From a virus: a stretch of DNA of 35,461 bases. Below, piece by piece: positions 9,516-32,111 of the stretch. The position numbers and the translations under genes were made by a program. Where the stretch lies: positions 1 through 35,461 of the IMG/VR virus record IMGVR_UViG_3300032315_001112; one strand, 5' to 3'. Under the pieces are notes generated by a model. That model was given only the letters and a program-made list of their open reading frames with translations. It did not search any database and was not told the origin of the DNA. How positions within the stretch are numbered: the first letter of the stretch is position 1; each line of letters opens with the position of its first letter.

Positions 9516-10391
9516 TCACGCTCCCGCAGGCCGTAAGCCCAGGTACACCGGGTGGCGCGGCTTGTCTTTCACGCCGACGGGGAAGGACTTGTACTTGATG
9601 GTCGAGCCAATGCAGCCGTCCTGCTTCCAAAAGTAGTGCCGGTCTTCGGCAGTGAACCCGGTGCCGATGTTGAACTCGACGCCGGTCTTCACGTCGCGCA
9701 CGACAAGCGCGCCCATCGTGCCCTTGCCGACCAGTCCGGCCTTGGCCGTGCTGCGCTTCGTGCGGCCCAGCTCGTTGGTCTGCGCCTCGTTGCCGTTGAA
9801 CATCTCTTCTTCGATGCCGATGACCACAGCCTCGCTATCCTCGAAACGCTTGACCTTGAGCAGCTCACCGCCCTTGGTCGTAGCGCGGCCGAACTTGTAC
9901 TGGGCGTTCGGATCGGCCAGCATGACGCCCTCGTAGCCGAGGTTGACTTGCTGCGCCTCGTAGGCGTCCAGCTCGTCGCGGCTGCGCAGCAGTGTGTGGC
10001 CGATGTAGCGAATATCGGCAAACGGCTGAACTGCGGATGACACCCAGGTGATCCGTTCTGCGAACGGCCCAGGCCGGTCCCACTGGTCGAACACGTAGTA
10101 GGTGGCCCGGGGCTCGCCTTCGTGGCCCATCACGCCGGACACGGTGTTGCGGTACACGTCGTGATCAGTGGGCTCGCCGACGATCAGCTCGCCGTCCAGG
10201 CCCTCCAGCATCGCCACGCTGAGCTTGTTGAACAGGTAGCGGTTCGGCACCTCCTTGAGCGTGCGCGTCAGCAGCTTGTTGCCGACCACGCTGGCGCGGA
10301 TGCCGTCGAGCTTGGGCGAGCCGTAGATGGGGAAGCGGACGTTGTCCAGGTCAGCCGGCGATGCCAGCATGGGCTTGAAGGTCTTGCTCAC
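9516..10391 (-). CDS. ATP-dependent DNA ligase
   Basis: A 291-aa protein with the nucleotidyltransferase motifs of ATP-dependent ligases: motif I KLDG at 27-30 (K27 is the predicted adenylated lysine in SPKLDGIRA), motif III DGELIVG, motif IV EGVMLADP and motif V LLKVKRF. An OB-fold-like C-terminal region follows (GALVVRDVKTGVEFNIGTGF). The short, minimal architecture matches T7-type phage ligases that seal nicks during replication and recombination. The GTG start at 10391 overlaps the upstream stop (GTGA). It is encoded in the same run as the integrase. Confidence 0.93.
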   Translation of the reverse strand: MSKTFKPMLASPADLDNVRFPIYGSPKLDGIRASVVGNKLLTRTLKEVPNRYLFNKLSVAMLEGLDGELIVGEPTDHDVYRNTVSGVMGHEGEPRATYYVFDQWDRPGPFAERITWVSSAVQPFADIRYIGHTLLRSRDELDAYEAQQVNLGYEGVMLADPNAQYKFGRATTKGGELLKVKRFEDSEAVVIGIEEEMFNGNEAQTNELGRTKRSTAKAGLVGKGTMGALVVRDVKTGVEFNIGTGFTAEDRHYFWKQDGCIGSTIKYKSFPVGVKDKPRHPVYLGLRPAGA

Positions 10392-10672
10392 GGCGTGAAG
10401 TCCAGGCTGAACGAGCCGTTGTTGATGATCCCGCGCACCTTGCTTTCCAGATCGTCGTCATCCGAGCGGTCCTTCAGTTCGTCCTCGATGTGATCGACGA
10501 CGGTGGACGGGTTGTTGGCGATGACTTCGAGCACACGGTCCTCGAAGCCGTTGACCTCTTCGAGCTTCTTCTCCAGCTCGGCGATGCGGGCTTCGAGAGG
10601 TGCGCTGATCTGGATGGCGAACTGATGGACGAACGCCTCGAACATGACGAGAGCGGGTGTGGGATCACTCAT
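10388..10672 (-). CDS. Coiled-coil acidic protein between integrase and ligase
   Basis: A 94-aa product. ATG 10672 overlaps the integrase stop (ATGA) and is chosen over upstream in-frame codons that would lie inside the integrase gene. It contains a clear heptad-type coiled coil (APLEARIAELEKKLEEVNG) and then an acidic segment (DELKDRSDDDDLESK). No family name recognised. The acidic coiled-coil composition would suit a protein-interaction or DNA-mimic role, but this is inference. It is translationally coupled on both sides. Confidence 0.75.
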   Translation of the reverse strand: MSDPTPALVMFEAFVHQFAIQISAPLEARIAELEKKLEEVNGFEDRVLEVIANNPSTVVDHIEDELKDRSDDDDLESKVRGIINNGSFSLDFTP

Positions 10673-11658
10673 GGTTTCTTTCTGCTGTTGTCTGCGAACC
10701 CAGCCAGATGGCTGGGAGCGTGGTGGGCGTAGTTCATGACCATGCGAAGGTCTGACCACGCCCCGAGCTTCTGCAACACGTCCAGCGGCGTGCCGTTCTG
10801 GACGTGCCAGGTGGCCCACGTGTGGCGCAAGCCGTGCCACGTGAAGCCGACGTAGCTGCCGTCCTCGTAGCGGCCCAGGCCGGCTCGGATACAGGCCGCC
10901 ATGAACGCCGTCTTGACCGAGACGATGGGTTGGCCCCGGTAGAGGAACACCGCGCCCTCGCGGTGCGGCAGCGGCGTCAGTAGATTGACCGCGTCTATCG
11001 ACAGCGGCACGCTGATAGCCTCAGCGCCCTTGGCGTCTTCGGCCTCGATCCAGACTAGCCGGCGGTCGAGGTCGACCCGGTCCCAGGTCAGGCCCAGCAC
11101 GTTGGCCCTGCGCAGCCCCGTAGCGAGCGCAAACGCTGCCGGGGCACGGAGGTGGCTGGGCAGCTCCAGATAGAGCTTCTGCCACTGCTCCAGGGTCAAC
11201 CAGTCACGGGGCTTGGCGGCCTTCTTGACACGCCACACGTGCAGCTTGGGCGCCTCGCGCAGCCAGCCACGGCCGACGGCCAGCGCCAGGATGGCAGCCA
11301 GCATCGTGCGGTAGCGGGTGTAGGTGCCTGGAGTGCGGCAGAACGCACGCAGTCGAGCGTCGATGGCGTCTGCCGTCAAATCCGTCAGCTTGCGGTCAGG
11401 AAAGCCGCGGCCGAACTTGGCCAAGCTCAGCAGCTCTGACTCAGATCGAAGTTCGACATCGCACCACGCGGCTACGGCCTTGCCCCAGGTCAGCCCGGCG
11501 ATCTTGGGCTGCGCCTTCCAGAGGTCGGCCTTGACTTCGTCGTGGATGCGCTGCGCCGCGACGCGATCAGTCTCTCCAGATGACCGACGTACCCGCTGGC
11601 CGGCATGAGCGATGTTGATCCACCAGAACTCACTGCCGGGGCGCTTGTAGAGTGACAT
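10669..11658 (-). CDS. int: Tyrosine integrase
   Basis: A 329-aa site-specific tyrosine recombinase. The catalytic set is complete: R183 in ATGLRRANVLGL, K210 in EDAKGAE, HxxR at 275-278 (HGLRHTW), W301 in the His/Trp position (KLGAWSD) and nucleophile Y310 (VMNYAHH). An N-terminal arm-binding region (YKRPGSEFWWINI) and a SAM-like core-binding domain (about 55-130) precede it. It would recombine the attP at 8975-9023 with a host tRNA-Val gene. It lies about 1.6 kb from attP with only the coiled-coil protein, ligase and two small genes between. The ATG at 11658 lies inside the 3' end of the upstream Xis-like frame. Confidence 0.95.
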   Translation of the reverse strand: MSLYKRPGSEFWWINIAHAGQRVRRSSGETDRVAAQRIHDEVKADLWKAQPKIAGLTWGKAVAAWCDVELRSESELLSLAKFGRGFPDRKLTDLTADAIDARLRAFCRTPGTYTRYRTMLAAILALAVGRGWLREAPKLHVWRVKKAAKPRDWLTLEQWQKLYLELPSHLRAPAAFALATGLRRANVLGLTWDRVDLDRRLVWIEAEDAKGAEAISVPLSIDAVNLLTPLPHREGAVFLYRGQPIVSVKTAFMAACIRAGLGRYEDGSYVGFTWHGLRHTWATWHVQNGTPLDVLQKLGAWSDLRMVMNYAHHAPSHLAGFADNSRKKP

Positions 11659-15202: not shown

Positions 15203-15413
15203 GGAATTTCTCCTTGAGTTGGCGGGTGTAGCGCAGCTCGTTGAATCGAGCTGCTCGGGAAATCAGCCGGTTGATCACCGACCGACGGCGAAGGCTGCCT
15301 GCCTCGACAGTGAGGCAGTGCAGCACCTCTTCTTCAGTCAGCTCGGGCAGCACGTCCATGAGCGTGCGGAACGACCCGAGCGCCTGCGAGACGTGCCACT
15401 GGCGAACCGACAT
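15165..15413 (-). CDS. Small basic hypothetical protein
   Basis: An 82-aa product: ATG 15413 lies three bases after the stop of the Cys-rich protein gene. It is mostly helical with VLPELTEEEVLHCLTVEAGS and a basic Arg-rich second half (SLRRRSVINRLISRAARFNE, LRYTRQLKEKFHG). Its last 38 bases overlap the start of the Ala/Lys-rich gene in another frame. No family is recognised; nucleic-acid binding is possible from charge. Confidence 0.7.
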   Translation of the reverse strand: MSVRQWHVSQALGSFRTLMDVLPELTEEEVLHCLTVEAGSLRRRSVINRLISRAARFNELRYTRQLKEKFHGTSPKQDHERR

Positions 15414-15416
15414 GGG

Positions 15417-16211
15417 TCAGCGACGGGCCTGCTTCTTGGCCGGCCGGGTGGCCGGGGCCTGGTAGTTCGACACGTCGGGCTCGACCATCAGCAGGTCGCG
15501 TGCCTCGCCCTGGCGGTTGTAGGCCACCTCCAGGTTCTCGTTGGGCGTCGCGTTCGAGAACTGGAACTGCGGGAAGTCCACGGCCTCGTTCAACTCGACC
15601 GTGGTGACGACGCCGACCGGCGGGACACCAAAAGTGCGGGCCACCGACGCCACGTAGCCGTCGAAGTTCTTCAGGGCCGTGGGCGACACGTTCAGGGTCC
15701 ACATGTCGGTGTTCTCGTTGGCGTCGGGCGGCAGCACCGCCAGCCTGCGGCCGTTCTTGCACGCCTTGCCCTTGCCGTCGCTGCCGAACTGGTTCATCGG
15801 GCAGGACTGGCAGTCCTTGGCCTGCGGGTTCGGCGAGTTCGGCGACGGCACCATGTTCTTCGGGTCGGTGCCGATGGCGAAGCAGTCGGGCGGGACGATG
15901 TTGTCCTTGTCGAAGCGGCCGGCGTAGAAGCTGTGCGTGGTCACGAAGTCCACGACCACGAGGTTCAGCGCGCCTTCGACCTTGGTGCCGTCGGGCAGGC
16001 TGATCTTCTTGTCCTGGCTGACCCGGATGGTGTTGCCGGTGGCCGGGGCGATGCGGCCGGCGAGACCGGCGACCTGGGCCTTGAGGGCTTCCTGGATCGA
16101 CACGATGTTGCCGGCCGGCTTCTTGACGGCGACGGCGGTGGAGGCTGCGGTGGGCGTCTTCTTGAGCGCCGCGGTCTTGGCAGGGGCTTTGGTGGCCATG
16201 GTTGCTTTCAT
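15417..16211 (-). CDS. Cys-rich putative ssDNA-binding protein
   Basis: A 264-aa product. After a low-complexity Ala/Lys/Thr N-terminus (to about residue 35), a central domain contains PPDCFAIG, DCQSCPMNQFGS and GKACKNGRR, a four-Cys metal-site pattern I recognise from conserved phage proteins next to DNA polymerase and helicase genes. The C-terminus is basic (RPAKKQARR). Position between the replication enzymes and composition suggest single-stranded DNA binding, but no biochemical family name is certain. ATG 16211 overlaps the upstream stop (ATGA); ATG 16199 (MATKAP) is an alternative. Confidence 0.7.
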   Translation of the reverse strand: MKATMATKAPAKTAALKKTPTAASTAVAVKKPAGNIVSIQEALKAQVAGLAGRIAPATGNTIRVSQDKKISLPDGTKVEGALNLVVVDFVTTHSFYAGRFDKDNIVPPDCFAIGTDPKNMVPSPNSPNPQAKDCQSCPMNQFGSDGKGKACKNGRRLAVLPPDANENTDMWTLNVSPTALKNFDGYVASVARTFGVPPVGVVTTVELNEAVDFPQFQFSNATPNENLEVAYNRQGEARDLLMVEPDVSNYQAPATRPAKKQARR

Positions 16212-27832: not shown

Positions 27833-27872
27833 GGGGTCGCCGACCGTACGTGCCTGTCGTGCAGGCGACCCC
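27833..27872 (-). terminator. Terminator/attenuator-like stem-loop before moxR
   Basis: GGGGTCGCC (27833-27841) pairs with GGCGACCCC (27864-27872) over nine bases, and an inner GCCTG/CAGGC (27852-27856/27862-27866) competes. On the minus-strand RNA the 3' arm is followed by UUCCUUU. It sits between the permuted tRNA and the moxR start and could terminate or attenuate transcription into the MoxR operon. Confidence 0.6.
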
Positions 27873-27896
27873 CGGGCTACCAGTGCGTGCTGGTTG

Positions 27897-27911
27897 GATG
27901 ACGACAACGAC
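27897..27911. repeat. 15-bp direct repeat GATGACGACAACGAC, copy 1
   Basis: The plus strand GATGACGACAACGAC at 27897-27911 recurs exactly at 28092-28106. The copies bracket the permuted tRNA on its two sides, 195 bases apart, as would be left by a tandem duplication or by recombination around the tRNA unit. Confidence 0.85.
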
Positions 27912-27919
27912 AACAATGA

Positions 27920-28018
27920 CCCGGCGTCCTACCGCTGAACGAAGAGGTCACTGGGGTCAACGTCACACGTGGCGTTGACCGTGGAGACCCCTGCTGGAGT
28001 CGAACCAGCGTTACCGGG
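27920..28018 (-). tRNA. Circularly permuted tRNA gene (3' half precedes 5' half)
   Basis: Read on the minus strand. 3' half: anticodon-stem 3' strand CCCGG (28018-28014), variable TAAC, T-arm GCTGG-TTCGACT-CCAGC (28009-27993), acceptor AGGGGTC (27992-27986), U73, CCA (27984-27982). Linker of 32 nt with hairpin GGTCAACG/CGTTGACC. 5' half: acceptor GACCTCT (27949-27943), T8 C9, D-arm GTTC-AGCGGTA-GGAC (27940-27926), G26, anticodon-stem CCGGG (27924-27920). All 7 acceptor pairs (one G-U), 4 D-stem pairs (one G-U), 5 anticodon pairs and 5 T pairs form, and U8-A14, G15-C48, G18/G19-T-loop contacts are present. The 7-nt anticodon loop depends on the unknown splice point; a simple join gives TCCACAA, with C at position 33. 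Confidence 0.7.
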
Positions 28019-28091
28019 TTGTGGTCTGTAGTTACAGCACGCACTTCTCACGCAGACGCTGTCAGGCGATACGAGACTCAGTGACCCGTAC

Positions 28092-28106
28092 GATGACGAC
28101 AACGAC
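28092..28106. repeat. 15-bp direct repeat GATGACGACAACGAC, copy 2
   Basis: Exact second copy of the repeat at 27897-27911. It lies between the stop of the 28129-28887 gene and the outer helix of the structured RNA. TGACCCG occurs near both copies as well. Confidence 0.85.
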
Positions 28107-28128
28107 TACGTTGGCCTGAAACTTGGTG

Positions 28129-28887
28129 TCAGGACTCGAACGGGCGCAGCAGGAGCTGCACCAGGGCGTCGCCCAGGTTCGAGTCGCCGACGGCGGTCTG
28201 GTTGGCCCGCATGCGGGCCTGCTTGACTTCGACCAGCATCTCGTCGACGAGCTTGATGGCCTCGGCCTTCTGCACAGCGGTGGCGGCACCGCTGCGCTTG
28301 ATGAGGGTGAACTTGCCCACGGTGTTGTCGCGGGTCGACTCCTTCACCTGGGCCGGGTGCTTGTCGGTGGCCGCTGCCAGCACGACAGGCACCATGACCT
28401 TCTCGGTCTTGGTGGCGTGCTCGGGCGGCGCCACCCAGGTGCCGGTCTGCGGGTCGTGCGCCCAGGTACGGCTGGCGTCCAGCGTCGGCACGGCCAGGAA
28501 GATTTCCTTGACCTTGACGAGCCGCGCCTCCAGGCCCAGGAGCTGATCGACCGGCAGTGCGCTGGCCAGCAGCTCACCGCGGAACACCAAGTCGGCCGTC
28601 GCAGCGCGGTTGGCCTCATTCTTCTGGTGCTGGAGCGTCTCGACCTTGCCGTAGAAGCCCAGCGCGTAGTGGAGCGTATCGCGCACGTTGGTGGGCACGG
28701 CCTTGTTCTCGGCGGCCTGCGCCTCGATGGCCTCGTTCGCCGCGCTGTCTTCCAGCATCTTCAGCGACTTGGTGTGGCCCTCGAAGTAGTGGCTGTTGCA
28801 GAGCTTCTTCAGCGTCTCCTGGTGCAGGGTGTTCCAGGAGGCGTTGACCGTCTTTTCGGCGGCCAGGAGTTCGTGAATGACAGGCAT
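28129..28887 (-). CDS. DUF7873-like conserved phage protein
   Basis: A 252-aa helix-rich protein from ATG 28887, which has AAGGA five bases upstream. The pattern VPTLDASRTWAHDPQTGTWV, then KVMVPVVLAAATDKHPAQV, then a C-terminal KLVDEMLVEVKQARMRAN helix is one I recognise from widespread phage and actinobacterial proteins (DUF7873-type; name from memory). Function unknown. It follows a 460-nt structured leader and precedes the permuted tRNA. The frame upstream of ATG 28887 is open but lies in the inverted repeat and is not used. Confidence 0.8.
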   Translation of the reverse strand: MPVIHELLAAEKTVNASWNTLHQETLKKLCNSHYFEGHTKSLKMLEDSAANEAIEAQAAENKAVPTNVRDTLHYALGFYGKVETLQHQKNEANRAATADLVFRGELLASALPVDQLLGLEARLVKVKEIFLAVPTLDASRTWAHDPQTGTWVAPPEHATKTEKVMVPVVLAAATDKHPAQVKESTRDNTVGKFTLIKRSGAATAVQKAEAIKLVDEMLVEVKQARMRANQTAVGDSNLGDALVQLLLRPFES

Positions 28888-28913: not shown

Positions 28914-29014
28914 ACCGAACAGTGGTGCAGGCAGACTCACGTCGTGCTGACACACTCCGCTTCCCGATGTCAGTCGAGAGCGCACAGCGCTTCCTACCTG
29001 CACCACTGTTCGGT
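28914..29014. repeat. 18-bp perfect inverted repeat
   Basis: ACCGAACAGTGGTGCAGG (28914-28931) is the exact complement of CCTGCACCACTGTTCGGT (28997-29014), with 65 bases between. It lies 26 bases upstream of the ATG at 28887, inside its putative leader. No transposase or target-site duplication accompanies it. Confidence 0.9.
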
Positions 29015-30849: not shown

Positions 30850-31584
30850 TCAGGCCGTGGCGTTGCCCGTCAGGCGCAGCAGCTTGTCGCGCTGCTCGCC
30901 GCTGGCCGCGCCGAGCACCTGCTGGGCGAAGCTGCGGCGCATGTTCTCGCGCACGATCACCGCGGCCTCGGCGACGATTTCGGTGTTGCGGGCTTCGTTG
31001 GCGACGTGCGCGGCCATGTCGATCTTGGCGATCACCCACTTGTACTCGGTGTCGCAGCCCGGCTCGATCTTGGCTTCGTTGTCCATCCGGACGACGACGC
31101 CGCAGGTGTAAAACCCGCGGGTGTCGATCACCACCCAGTCATCCTTCTCCAGGGCGAGATGAGTGACGTAGGTGTACGTCTTGGTGGCGGTGCTGTCGGC
31201 GCCAACCAGCCTGACGTGCACGGTCTTGGCGTCGGAGCGGAGCAGGGCGGCGAGGTTATGGTCCATGATGCGGTTGCCTTTCTTGGCAGCGGGTTCGGGG
31301 TCGAGGGCGTACGTCAAGTAGTCGTACTTGTGCAGAGTGCAGTCGTTGGGAAGCGGGGCGATGTCGAAGTACGCGTCGAAGTACCGTCGAAGCTGTTCGG
31401 CGTCTTCGACTGTGCAGGCGTAGCCGCGGTCTCCGTAGAGAGAGAGAGAGAGCAGGCCCTGGCGGATACGTGAACGTCGGGCGCCGAGCGATGCTCTTGG
31501 TGCTACGGACGAGTACGGCCTCGTGAAGTACCCGTCTTGCTTCAAGCGGTCGCGCCACTCTGCGAGCTGTTCGAGGTGAGCCAT
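30850..31584 (-). CDS. Conserved phage hypothetical protein
   Basis: A 244-aa product; ATG 31584 shares a base with the upstream TGA (TGATG) and has AGGAG seven bases before. The N-terminal 100 residues contain FDAYFDIAPLPNDC; the middle contains KTYTYVTHLALEKDDWVVID and GFYTCGVVVRMDNE, then YKWVIAKIDMAAHV, a beta-rich domain seen in small T7-like phage proteins. The C-terminus is a helix. An AG-rich stretch (31436-31451) encodes LSLSL. Function unknown. Confidence 0.75.
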   Translation of the reverse strand: MAHLEQLAEWRDRLKQDGYFTRPYSSVAPRASLGARRSRIRQGLLSLSLYGDRGYACTVEDAEQLRRYFDAYFDIAPLPNDCTLHKYDYLTYALDPEPAAKKGNRIMDHNLAALLRSDAKTVHVRLVGADSTATKTYTYVTHLALEKDDWVVIDTRGFYTCGVVVRMDNEAKIEPGCDTEYKWVIAKIDMAAHVANEARNTEIVAEAAVIVRENMRRSFAQQVLGAASGEQRDKLLRLTGNATA

Positions 31585-32111
31585 CAGAAATCTCCTGGCG
31601 CCACCTGACAGCACAGCACGCCGTTGCGGCGCCACATCTCGACGACTTGGTTGCGGTCATCGAACACGCAGACCAGACGGGCGCGATCTTCAGGGCTCAT
31701 GGCGTTCAGCCAGCGCTCCTTGAGCACGTGGTCGATGGTGTGGTCCTTGGCCGGGCGCATGCGCAGGTTGGTGATCAGCGGCAGGATGCCTTGGTCGCCC
31801 AGCCACGCCATCGTCTCGATCTGCACCGTGGCCATCCGGCCCGACCAGACCCAGACTTCGGGGCCAGTGGTAGCGAGGTGCTTGAGCAGGCTGATCACCG
31901 GCTTGATCGGTGTATCGTCCACGCAGGCCGCGTGGAAAGCATTCCAGTTCGGTGTGAACTGGCGGCGCAGTGCAGTGCAGTGCGGGCAGCCGTCCAGCGG
32001 CTTGCGCAGCGGCTCGCACTCGTGGCACGACGGCTTCTCGACGAAGTGGCGGCGGTGGCGCAGGTCGGCGAGCGTGCCGTCCAGGTCGAAGATGAAGAGA
32101 GGTCTGGTCAC
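31584..32111 (-). CDS. HAD-family 3'-phosphatase (T4 Pnkp C-domain-like) with zinc ribbon
   Basis: A 175-aa HAD phosphatase. Motif I FDLDGTLAD (D9 nucleophile, D11), motif II VWVWSGR and motif IV FDDRNQVVEMW are present. The ending RNQVVEMWRRNGVLCCQVAP closely follows the 3'-phosphatase domain of T4 polynucleotide kinase-phosphatase as I remember it. The kinase domain is absent. An inserted zinc-ribbon-like C29xxC32-x9-C42xxC45 lies after motif I. Expected activity is removal of 3'-phosphate or 2',3'-cyclic phosphate ends in RNA or DNA end-healing. GTG 32111 overlaps the upstream stop (GTGA). Confidence 0.85.
   Translation of the reverse strand: MTRPLFIFDLDGTLADLRHRRHFVEKPSCHECEPLRKPLDGCPHCTALRRQFTPNWNAFHAACVDDTPIKPVISLLKHLATTGPEVWVWSGRMATVQIETMAWLGDQGILPLITNLRMRPAKDHTIDHVLKERWLNAMSPEDRARLVCVFDDRNQVVEMWRRNGVLCCQVAPGDF

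Follow-up and report, generated by a model that had tools for sequence, protein, structure and literature searches.

What is a complete tRNA cloverleaf doing in phage DNA with its two halves in the wrong order? The question is posed by the window, by which we mean the whole 35,461-base stretch analyzed here, an IMG/VR record that is distant kin of Pseudomonas phage KPP25 by its primase. On the minus strand, from 28018 to 27920, direct reading gives a 3′ half, a 32-nt linker and then a 5′ half, which together supply every part of a cloverleaf (Table 1). All seven acceptor pairs form (one is G-U), as do five pairs of the anticodon-type stem, five of the T stem and four of the D stem, and the tRNA core is represented by U8, A14, G15-C48, G18G19, and A21. 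ARAGORN found no tRNA or tmRNA in the window as it stands and called a tRNA in every rejoined version of the element; the reversed order of the halves hides it from ordinary tRNA finders. An Rfam scan of the window returned no match above threshold. A lax scanner for permuted tRNAs detected one site in the window and two matches in 300 Markov sequences of the same size. Thus, the reversed-order cloverleaf, its pairing and its core contacts, as described in the first-pass annotation, are borne out by direct reading, by ARAGORN on the rejoined versions and by the scanner, and the claim that no ordinary tRNA can be built from these bases agrees with the ARAGORN result on the unaltered window.

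The whole structure is closed by P0, an 11-bp perfect inverted repeat (28045-28035 / 27892-27882) that brings the 5′ and 3′ parts of the RNA together as a basal stem and is reached 16 and 27 nt beyond the two halves of the anticodon-type stem. The ends of this repeat are exactly the outer limits, 27882-28045, that had been drawn for the element before. The resulting 164-nt RNA folds with z = -3.95, and none of 200 shuffles was equally stable. A 15-nt exact direct repeat (28106-28092 and 27911-27897) flanks the element, both copies corresponding to a TCGTTGTCGT/ATCGT-type motif. In 14 close relatives of the window element, ATCGT was seen 34 times compared to 2.9 in shuffles, and in the window's group a GCGTTATCGTTGTCGTT-like block opens the leader, and a TTATATCGTTAGCGT-like sequence opens the trailer. 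The loop motif of the 3′ hairpin lies 56 to 67 nt past the 5′ half in seven loci and has nine matches in total in 2.44 Mb. A simple terminator scan of the window did not flag this hairpin (27872-27833), which could be a terminator, a third domain of the RNA or both. The conserved leader, trailer, and 3′ motifs are candidate protein-binding sites.

Table 1. Features of the DUF7873 locus in the window, listed 5′ to 3′ along the minus strand
Feature	Position	Strand	Sequence or remark	Evidence
DUF7873 (PF25283) protein gene	28129..28887	-	252 aa; partner gene of the element	Pfam; 72-homologue alignment; linkage
Leader copy of conserved motif	28092..28116	-	TCGTTGTCGT / ATCGT motif; first direct-repeat copy	25-nt direct repeat, 84%; alignment block
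P0 5′ arm, outer stem	28035..28045	-	AGTGCGTGCTG	Inverted repeat; cross-locus permutation test
3′ half of tRNA-like module	27982..28018	-	Anticodon-stem 3′ strand, variable loop, T-arm, acceptor 3′ strand, UCCA	Direct reading, rejoining, scanner
Anticodon-stem 3′ strand	28018-28014	-	CCCGG, then variable loop TAAC	
T-arm	28009-27993	-	GCTGG TTCGACT CCAGC	
Acceptor 3′ strand	27992-27986	-	AGGGGTC	
Discriminator U and encoded CCA	27985-27982	-	TCCA	
Linker, CCA to 5′ half	27950..27981	-	Own 8-bp hairpin, 27980-27973 / 27962-27955	
5′ half of tRNA-like module	27920..27949	-	Acceptor 5′ strand, U8, D-arm, anticodon-stem 5′ strand	Direct reading, rejoining, scanner
Acceptor 5′ strand	27949-27943	-	GACCTCT; U8 at 27942	
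D-arm	27940-27926	-	Loop AGCGGTA	
Anticodon-stem 5′ strand	27924-27920	-	CCGGG	
Trailer copy of conserved motif	27897..27921	-	TCGTTGTCGT motif, directly after 5′ half; second direct-repeat copy	
P0 3′ arm, outer stem	27882..27892	-	CAGCACGCACT	Inverted repeat; cross-locus permutation test; fold
3′ hairpin	27833..27872	-	GGGGTCGCC ... GGCGACCCC, loop ACGACAGGCACGTACGG (27860-27844), then TTCCTTT	Loop conservation, fold

The protein encoded upstream of the element belongs to DUF7873 (Pfam, E 2.5e-61; 207.9 bits versus a cut-off of 27), and the gene order in the window is DUF7873, permuted element, MoxR-like ATPase gene. We placed the DUF7873 start at a conserved M(P/A)KLHE; the longest ORF begins at 28953. 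Using Pfam, Foldseek, structure comparison, PADLOC, NCBIfam, and PHROGs, we detected no similarity to nucleases or ligases, and PADLOC, NCBIfam, and PHROGs provided no useful name. A structural model (pLDDT 94, pTM 0.68) had no Foldseek match at E ≤ 0.001 in the PDB or among viral models. The best VIA match, 3kdq_A (a protein of unknown function; Z 9.6, rmsd 8.5), was not interpretable. Our literature search found no paper naming DUF7873 and neither a function nor an RNA partner for it. Elsewhere on the minus strand, the window encodes an ATP-dependent DNA ligase (9516-10391), an integrase (10669-11658), and a polynucleotide kinase (31584-32111).

The pairing of gene and RNA is not peculiar to the window. 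The first loci checked, in Rhizobium phage RHph_TM16, Klebsiella phage KpLz-2_45 (two elements), and Vibrio phage D517, were all positive. Using DUF7873 homology alone, we gathered 80 IMG/VR loci and 17 bacterial contigs. With a fixed scanner, a permuted element was detected just downstream of DUF7873 on the same strand in 89 of these 97 loci, and relaxed inspection, which added L112, L116, L130, L166, L170, and L181, raised the number to at least 95. On the same inspection L186 yielded no element, and L173, near a contig end, a D-arm only. A later Pfam-HMM set from Actinomycetota and Cyanobacteria contained 14 loci, two of which (L197 and L202) duplicated earlier ones; the 12 new bacterial loci were positive by scanner (nine) or by inspection (three). 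Seven of eight further cultured phages were also positive by scanner, among them FBKp24, which is very close to KpLz-2_45, and in the eighth, a Microcoleus phage, visual inspection shows a T-arm and an acceptor strand that matches. Cultured phages with the pair have Gordonia, Arthrobacter, Rhodococcus, Rhizobium, Vibrio, and Klebsiella as hosts. The pair is also present in Streptomyces and cyanobacteria themselves, and the bacterial contigs include Streptosporangium, Calothrix, and Hyalangium in addition to Streptomyces. As a control, we scanned 79 loci without DUF7873 from phages of the window's primase lineage; these gave one match in 2.6 million strand-bases, and it overlapped a YrlA match. 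Since primase relatives resembling KPP25 share the primase but mostly lack both DUF7873 and the RNA, the RNA lies outside the core of that lineage. Across dozens of unrelated phages, and in some bacteria, the gene is accompanied by the RNA. Alignments were needed to recognize the pair: single-protein pattern scans of viral_contigs for DUF7873 and the MoxR ATPase found nothing, and a DNA search of the locus among phages gave short T-arm matches only, mostly to ordinary tRNAs.

These loci differ in their surroundings. DUF7873 often lies within phage tRNA clusters; in Rhodococcus phage NiceHouse (L217 2700-3516), such a cluster also holds a gene for a band-7-like membrane protein, located after the DUF7873/RNA unit. 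In Streptomyces chattanoogensis, a Bac_thur_toxin (PF01338) protein gene (L171 3987-4613, minus strand) adjoins DUF7873 on the opposite strand. Actinobacterial phages and Streptomyces often carry two tandem elements (L213, L214, L217, L218, and the Streptomyces loci), the first of which has a long Leu-like D-loop (GTAGCCCAA..GGCAGAGGCA). In Klebsiella phage FBKp24, a suppressor tRNA annotated in GenBank overlaps the second permuted element (L220 2518-2597) and is probably a misreading of it.

Comparison of the loci revealed strong constraint on the pairing between the halves. We chose T-arm/D-arm pairs downstream of DUF7873 blind to acceptor pairing (n = 81). In 73 of these, the acceptor strands paired at 7/7 positions, compared to 1.4% of mismatched partners. 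Among 82 distinct viral elements, all four Watson-Crick types occur at each of the seven acceptor pairs. Between the window element and its nearest relative, L090, double changes are found at acceptor pairs 1, 2, and 7, at two anticodon-stem pairs and in the outer stem. For leaders and trailers, whole-region duplex energies were uninformative, but a single-helix score combined with a permutation test was informative: 0 of 2000 permutations of leader and trailer partners matched the observed P0 pairing sum across loci, a sum to which single loci contribute variably, many being individually weak. Compensatory change, which the first-pass annotation had wanted to see in homologous phages, is therefore present at every acceptor pair, and this substitution pattern indicates that acceptor pairing is under selection. 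Degenerate leftovers of a tandem tRNA duplication would yield an identical order, although, as the first-pass annotation remarked, they would not need the complementary flanks. The order is kept in about 100 loci, where compensatory changes are seen and an outer stem and a linked gene accompany it; this conservation refutes such a relic, to which we attach negligible probability.

Although the two halves form a tRNA body, a normal anticodon loop is absent. Every 7-nt anticodon-loop join in the window gives C33 rather than U33. Across loci, 39 of the 82 elements have U33, compared to 192 of the 199 ordinary tRNAs encoded in these loci (Fisher p 1e-20), and position 37 is not purine-rich. We saw no common anticodon and no joining or splice motif, no junction base being conserved across the 82 elements, and by eye no BHB junction in the window. 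The element is probably not a decoding tRNA, judging from these base frequencies, and the part of the first-pass annotation that called it a tRNA gene in the functional sense is not supported.

The linker provides a further clue. CCA is encoded in 65 of 85 viral elements, and in 31 of the 32 viral elements with short linkers. It is missing from the other 20 viral elements and from 13 of 18 bacterial ones, so a free CCA end cannot be general. Among viral elements found by the scanner, the linker ranges from 2 to 79 nt, and TAT is the consensus for the last bases of short linkers, just ahead of the 5′ half (T 26/31, A 28/31, T 23/31). Two loci have an ORF inserted between the CCA and the 5′ acceptor strand (L112 5124-5600 and L130 5019-5474). 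The L112 product is an HNH protein (HNH_3, E 3e-12); that of L130 has no Pfam match and looks HNH-like from its sequence alone. The two ORFs appear mutually unrelated. Since the linker accepts a half-kilobase insert, the working RNA probably does not include it, in keeping with cleavage into two pieces. The two-piece RNA that had been suggested for this locus is therefore plausible in view of the encoded CCA, the TAT motif, and the HNH-type linker genes, but the suggestion must be tempered by the elements that lack CCA and by the 34 of 82 viral elements in which the CCA region is able to pair with the linker, as such pairing could hinder cutting.

The closest known counterpart in layout is YrlA. 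The YrlA model (RF02553), printed against L104 and L123, runs from a basal stem through the T-arm, the acceptor with a short loop, the D-arm, and a short anticodon-type stem back to the basal stem. Like YrlA, the DUF7873-linked RNA has a basal stem, a permuted T/acceptor/D module, and tRNA core sequences, and it occurs in bacteria and phages. Unlike YrlA, it has DUF7873 instead of Ro60/TROVE as partner gene at the locus, a linker of 2-79 nt or one with an HNH-type gene, and its own ATCGT and 3′ hairpin loop motifs; most phage copies also encode CCA, whereas the YrlA acceptor is closed by a short loop without CCA. YrlA is reported to bind the Ro60 orthologue Rsr via its basal stem and PNPase via its tRNA-like domain (PMC8394870). 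Ro/TROVE genes and YrlA have been reported in phages (PMC7824862; PMC7765460). The earlier statement that no phage case was known is therefore incomplete, since YrlA has the same permuted order and had already been described in phages (PMC7765460).

Four accounts of the RNA other than our own have to be weighed. Circularly permuted tRNA genes are known from red and green algae and from Thermofilum (PMC3978253), and the window element resembles them in that the 3′ half precedes the 5′ half and the cloverleaf pairs in full. If it were a genuine gene of this kind, the transcript would be cut and ligated at the anticodon loop, its ends trimmed and the product used in decoding, with DUF7873 as splicing factor. 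The complete cloverleaf with tRNA core bases and encoded CCA, the acceptance of all joined versions by ARAGORN, the kinase and ligase encoded in the window and the frequent presence of DUF7873 in phage tRNA clusters are consistent with this idea. We nevertheless consider it quite unlikely, as C33 in all window joins, the scarcity of U33 among the elements, the lack of purines at position 37 and the lack of a joining motif common to the loci speak against decoding, P0 would hold the junction ends 16 and 27 nt apart, and DUF7873 resembles neither ligases nor nucleases. The element also differs from the algal and Thermofilum genes in having an extra outer stem, a dedicated protein gene and a distribution in bacteria and phages, and in lacking a usable anticodon loop and, by eye, a BHB junction. 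In permuted ssrA genes, the acceptor piece is likewise encoded first, followed by an intervening segment and the 5′ piece. The window element shares this order with two-piece tmRNA (RF04321), together with a linker that is probably removed. That it is a permuted tmRNA or a tmRNA-like RNA is nonetheless very unlikely: Rfam, including RF04321, is unmatched in the window (RF04321 gives 130 bits in L077, a positive control), ARAGORN finds no tmRNA, the D-stem is complete, and we noticed neither a tag region nor a conserved tag frame in the trailers. We weighed and discarded the possibility that the trailer encodes a tag peptide. The L077 contig is from a phage that is KPP25 kin by primase, and there, within 15208-15903, the permuted tmRNA is followed by a YrlA-like permuted element.

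The RNA might instead be a true Ro60-type Y RNA, a YrlA bound by host or phage Ro60/Rsr and tethering PNPase, in which case DUF7873 would be a neighbor with another job. The identical topology speaks for this, as do weak matches to the YrlA model at L104 (42.8 bits), L123 (30.7), L171 (29.0), L109 (25.0), and L090 (21.2), all below the cut-off of 69, and the presence of TROVE in six of 44 viral DUF7873 records, in four of them within about 8 kb. However, TROVE is absent from the other 38 records, the window included (records may be fragments), and the window element matches neither the YrlA model nor the YrlA end motifs (GAAUGC / ACUUGUCG). The looped, CCA-free acceptor of YrlA and the near-perfect linkage to DUF7873 likewise make membership in YrlA unlikely. 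The two systems are neighbors in L123, where 5 kb of a single phage contig (118-4941) hold the permuted RNA and DUF7873 along with a TROVE (Ro60) ORF, two YrlA-like RNAs, and a tRNA cluster. A decoy function is a different matter: the tRNA-like RNA alone would absorb host anticodon nucleases or other tRNA-targeting defenses, DUF7873 would only stabilize it, and the decoy would be uncleavable because it has no anticodon loop. Retention of the tRNA elbow without that loop is in keeping with such a role, and the bodies of the elements vary by locus as if mimicking different tRNAs; a competitive-inhibitor role has been proposed for the YrlA tRNA-like domain (PMC7790460). Since the pair is also found in bacterial contigs, which argues for a broader role, and conservation of motifs in the leader, in the trailer, and at the 3′ side points to something beyond a decoy, we regard this explanation as improbable.

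We consider it probable that the locus encodes a protein-RNA pair in which a Y-RNA-like tRNA mimic forms a ribonucleoprotein with DUF7873 and is perhaps cut into two pieces. As the topology is that of YrlA, but the model scores fall below the cut-off and TROVE is mostly absent, we propose that the RNA works in a YrlA-like manner and do not claim that it belongs to YrlA. The RNA family is well supported, and its mechanism is one that we infer. The RNA would consist of the P0 basal stem, an internal region with the repeated ATCGT-type motif, and a distal permuted tRNA elbow. It may be transcribed together with the DUF7873 mRNA and released by tRNA-processing enzymes. Since neither fold nor sequence comparison linked DUF7873 to a protein of known function, it is from the linkage that we infer binding of the protein to its own RNA. 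By analogy with Ro60 and YrlA, the tRNA-like module would dock on a host tRNA-binding factor; candidates include RNase P, PNPase, enzymes of tRNA processing, and anticodon nucleases. The linker of most phage copies is probably cleaved by enzymes that act on tRNA ends, which would leave two RNA pieces, one with its CCA end free; the acceptor stem, the anticodon-type stem, and P0 would keep the pieces together. A bolder form of this proposal is one we advance tentatively and regard as somewhat doubtful: DUF7873 would form a widespread ribonucleoprotein with a permuted tRNA in two pieces, which has a free CCA end, lacks an anticodon, and might be aminoacylated or might dock on the machinery of translation or of tRNA processing.

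That a noncoding RNA can be a permuted tRNA-like molecule was known from YrlA. The family, its partner and the CCA-bearing open form appear to be new: we found no Rfam family, no Pfam function and, in a literature search in which papers on permuted tRNAs and phages were represented by titles and abstracts, no description of the DUF7873/RNA pair. DUF7873, a family with no assigned function, is thereby provided with a likely RNA partner, and the permuted tRNA-like RNAs gain a second class in addition to the Y RNAs bound by Ro60. Should the acceptor end be freed and the CCA exposed, the element would exemplify a natural tRNA-like RNA in two pieces other than tmRNA. The finding also raises the question of how phages benefit from tRNA mimics that lack an anticodon, for example against anticodon nucleases.
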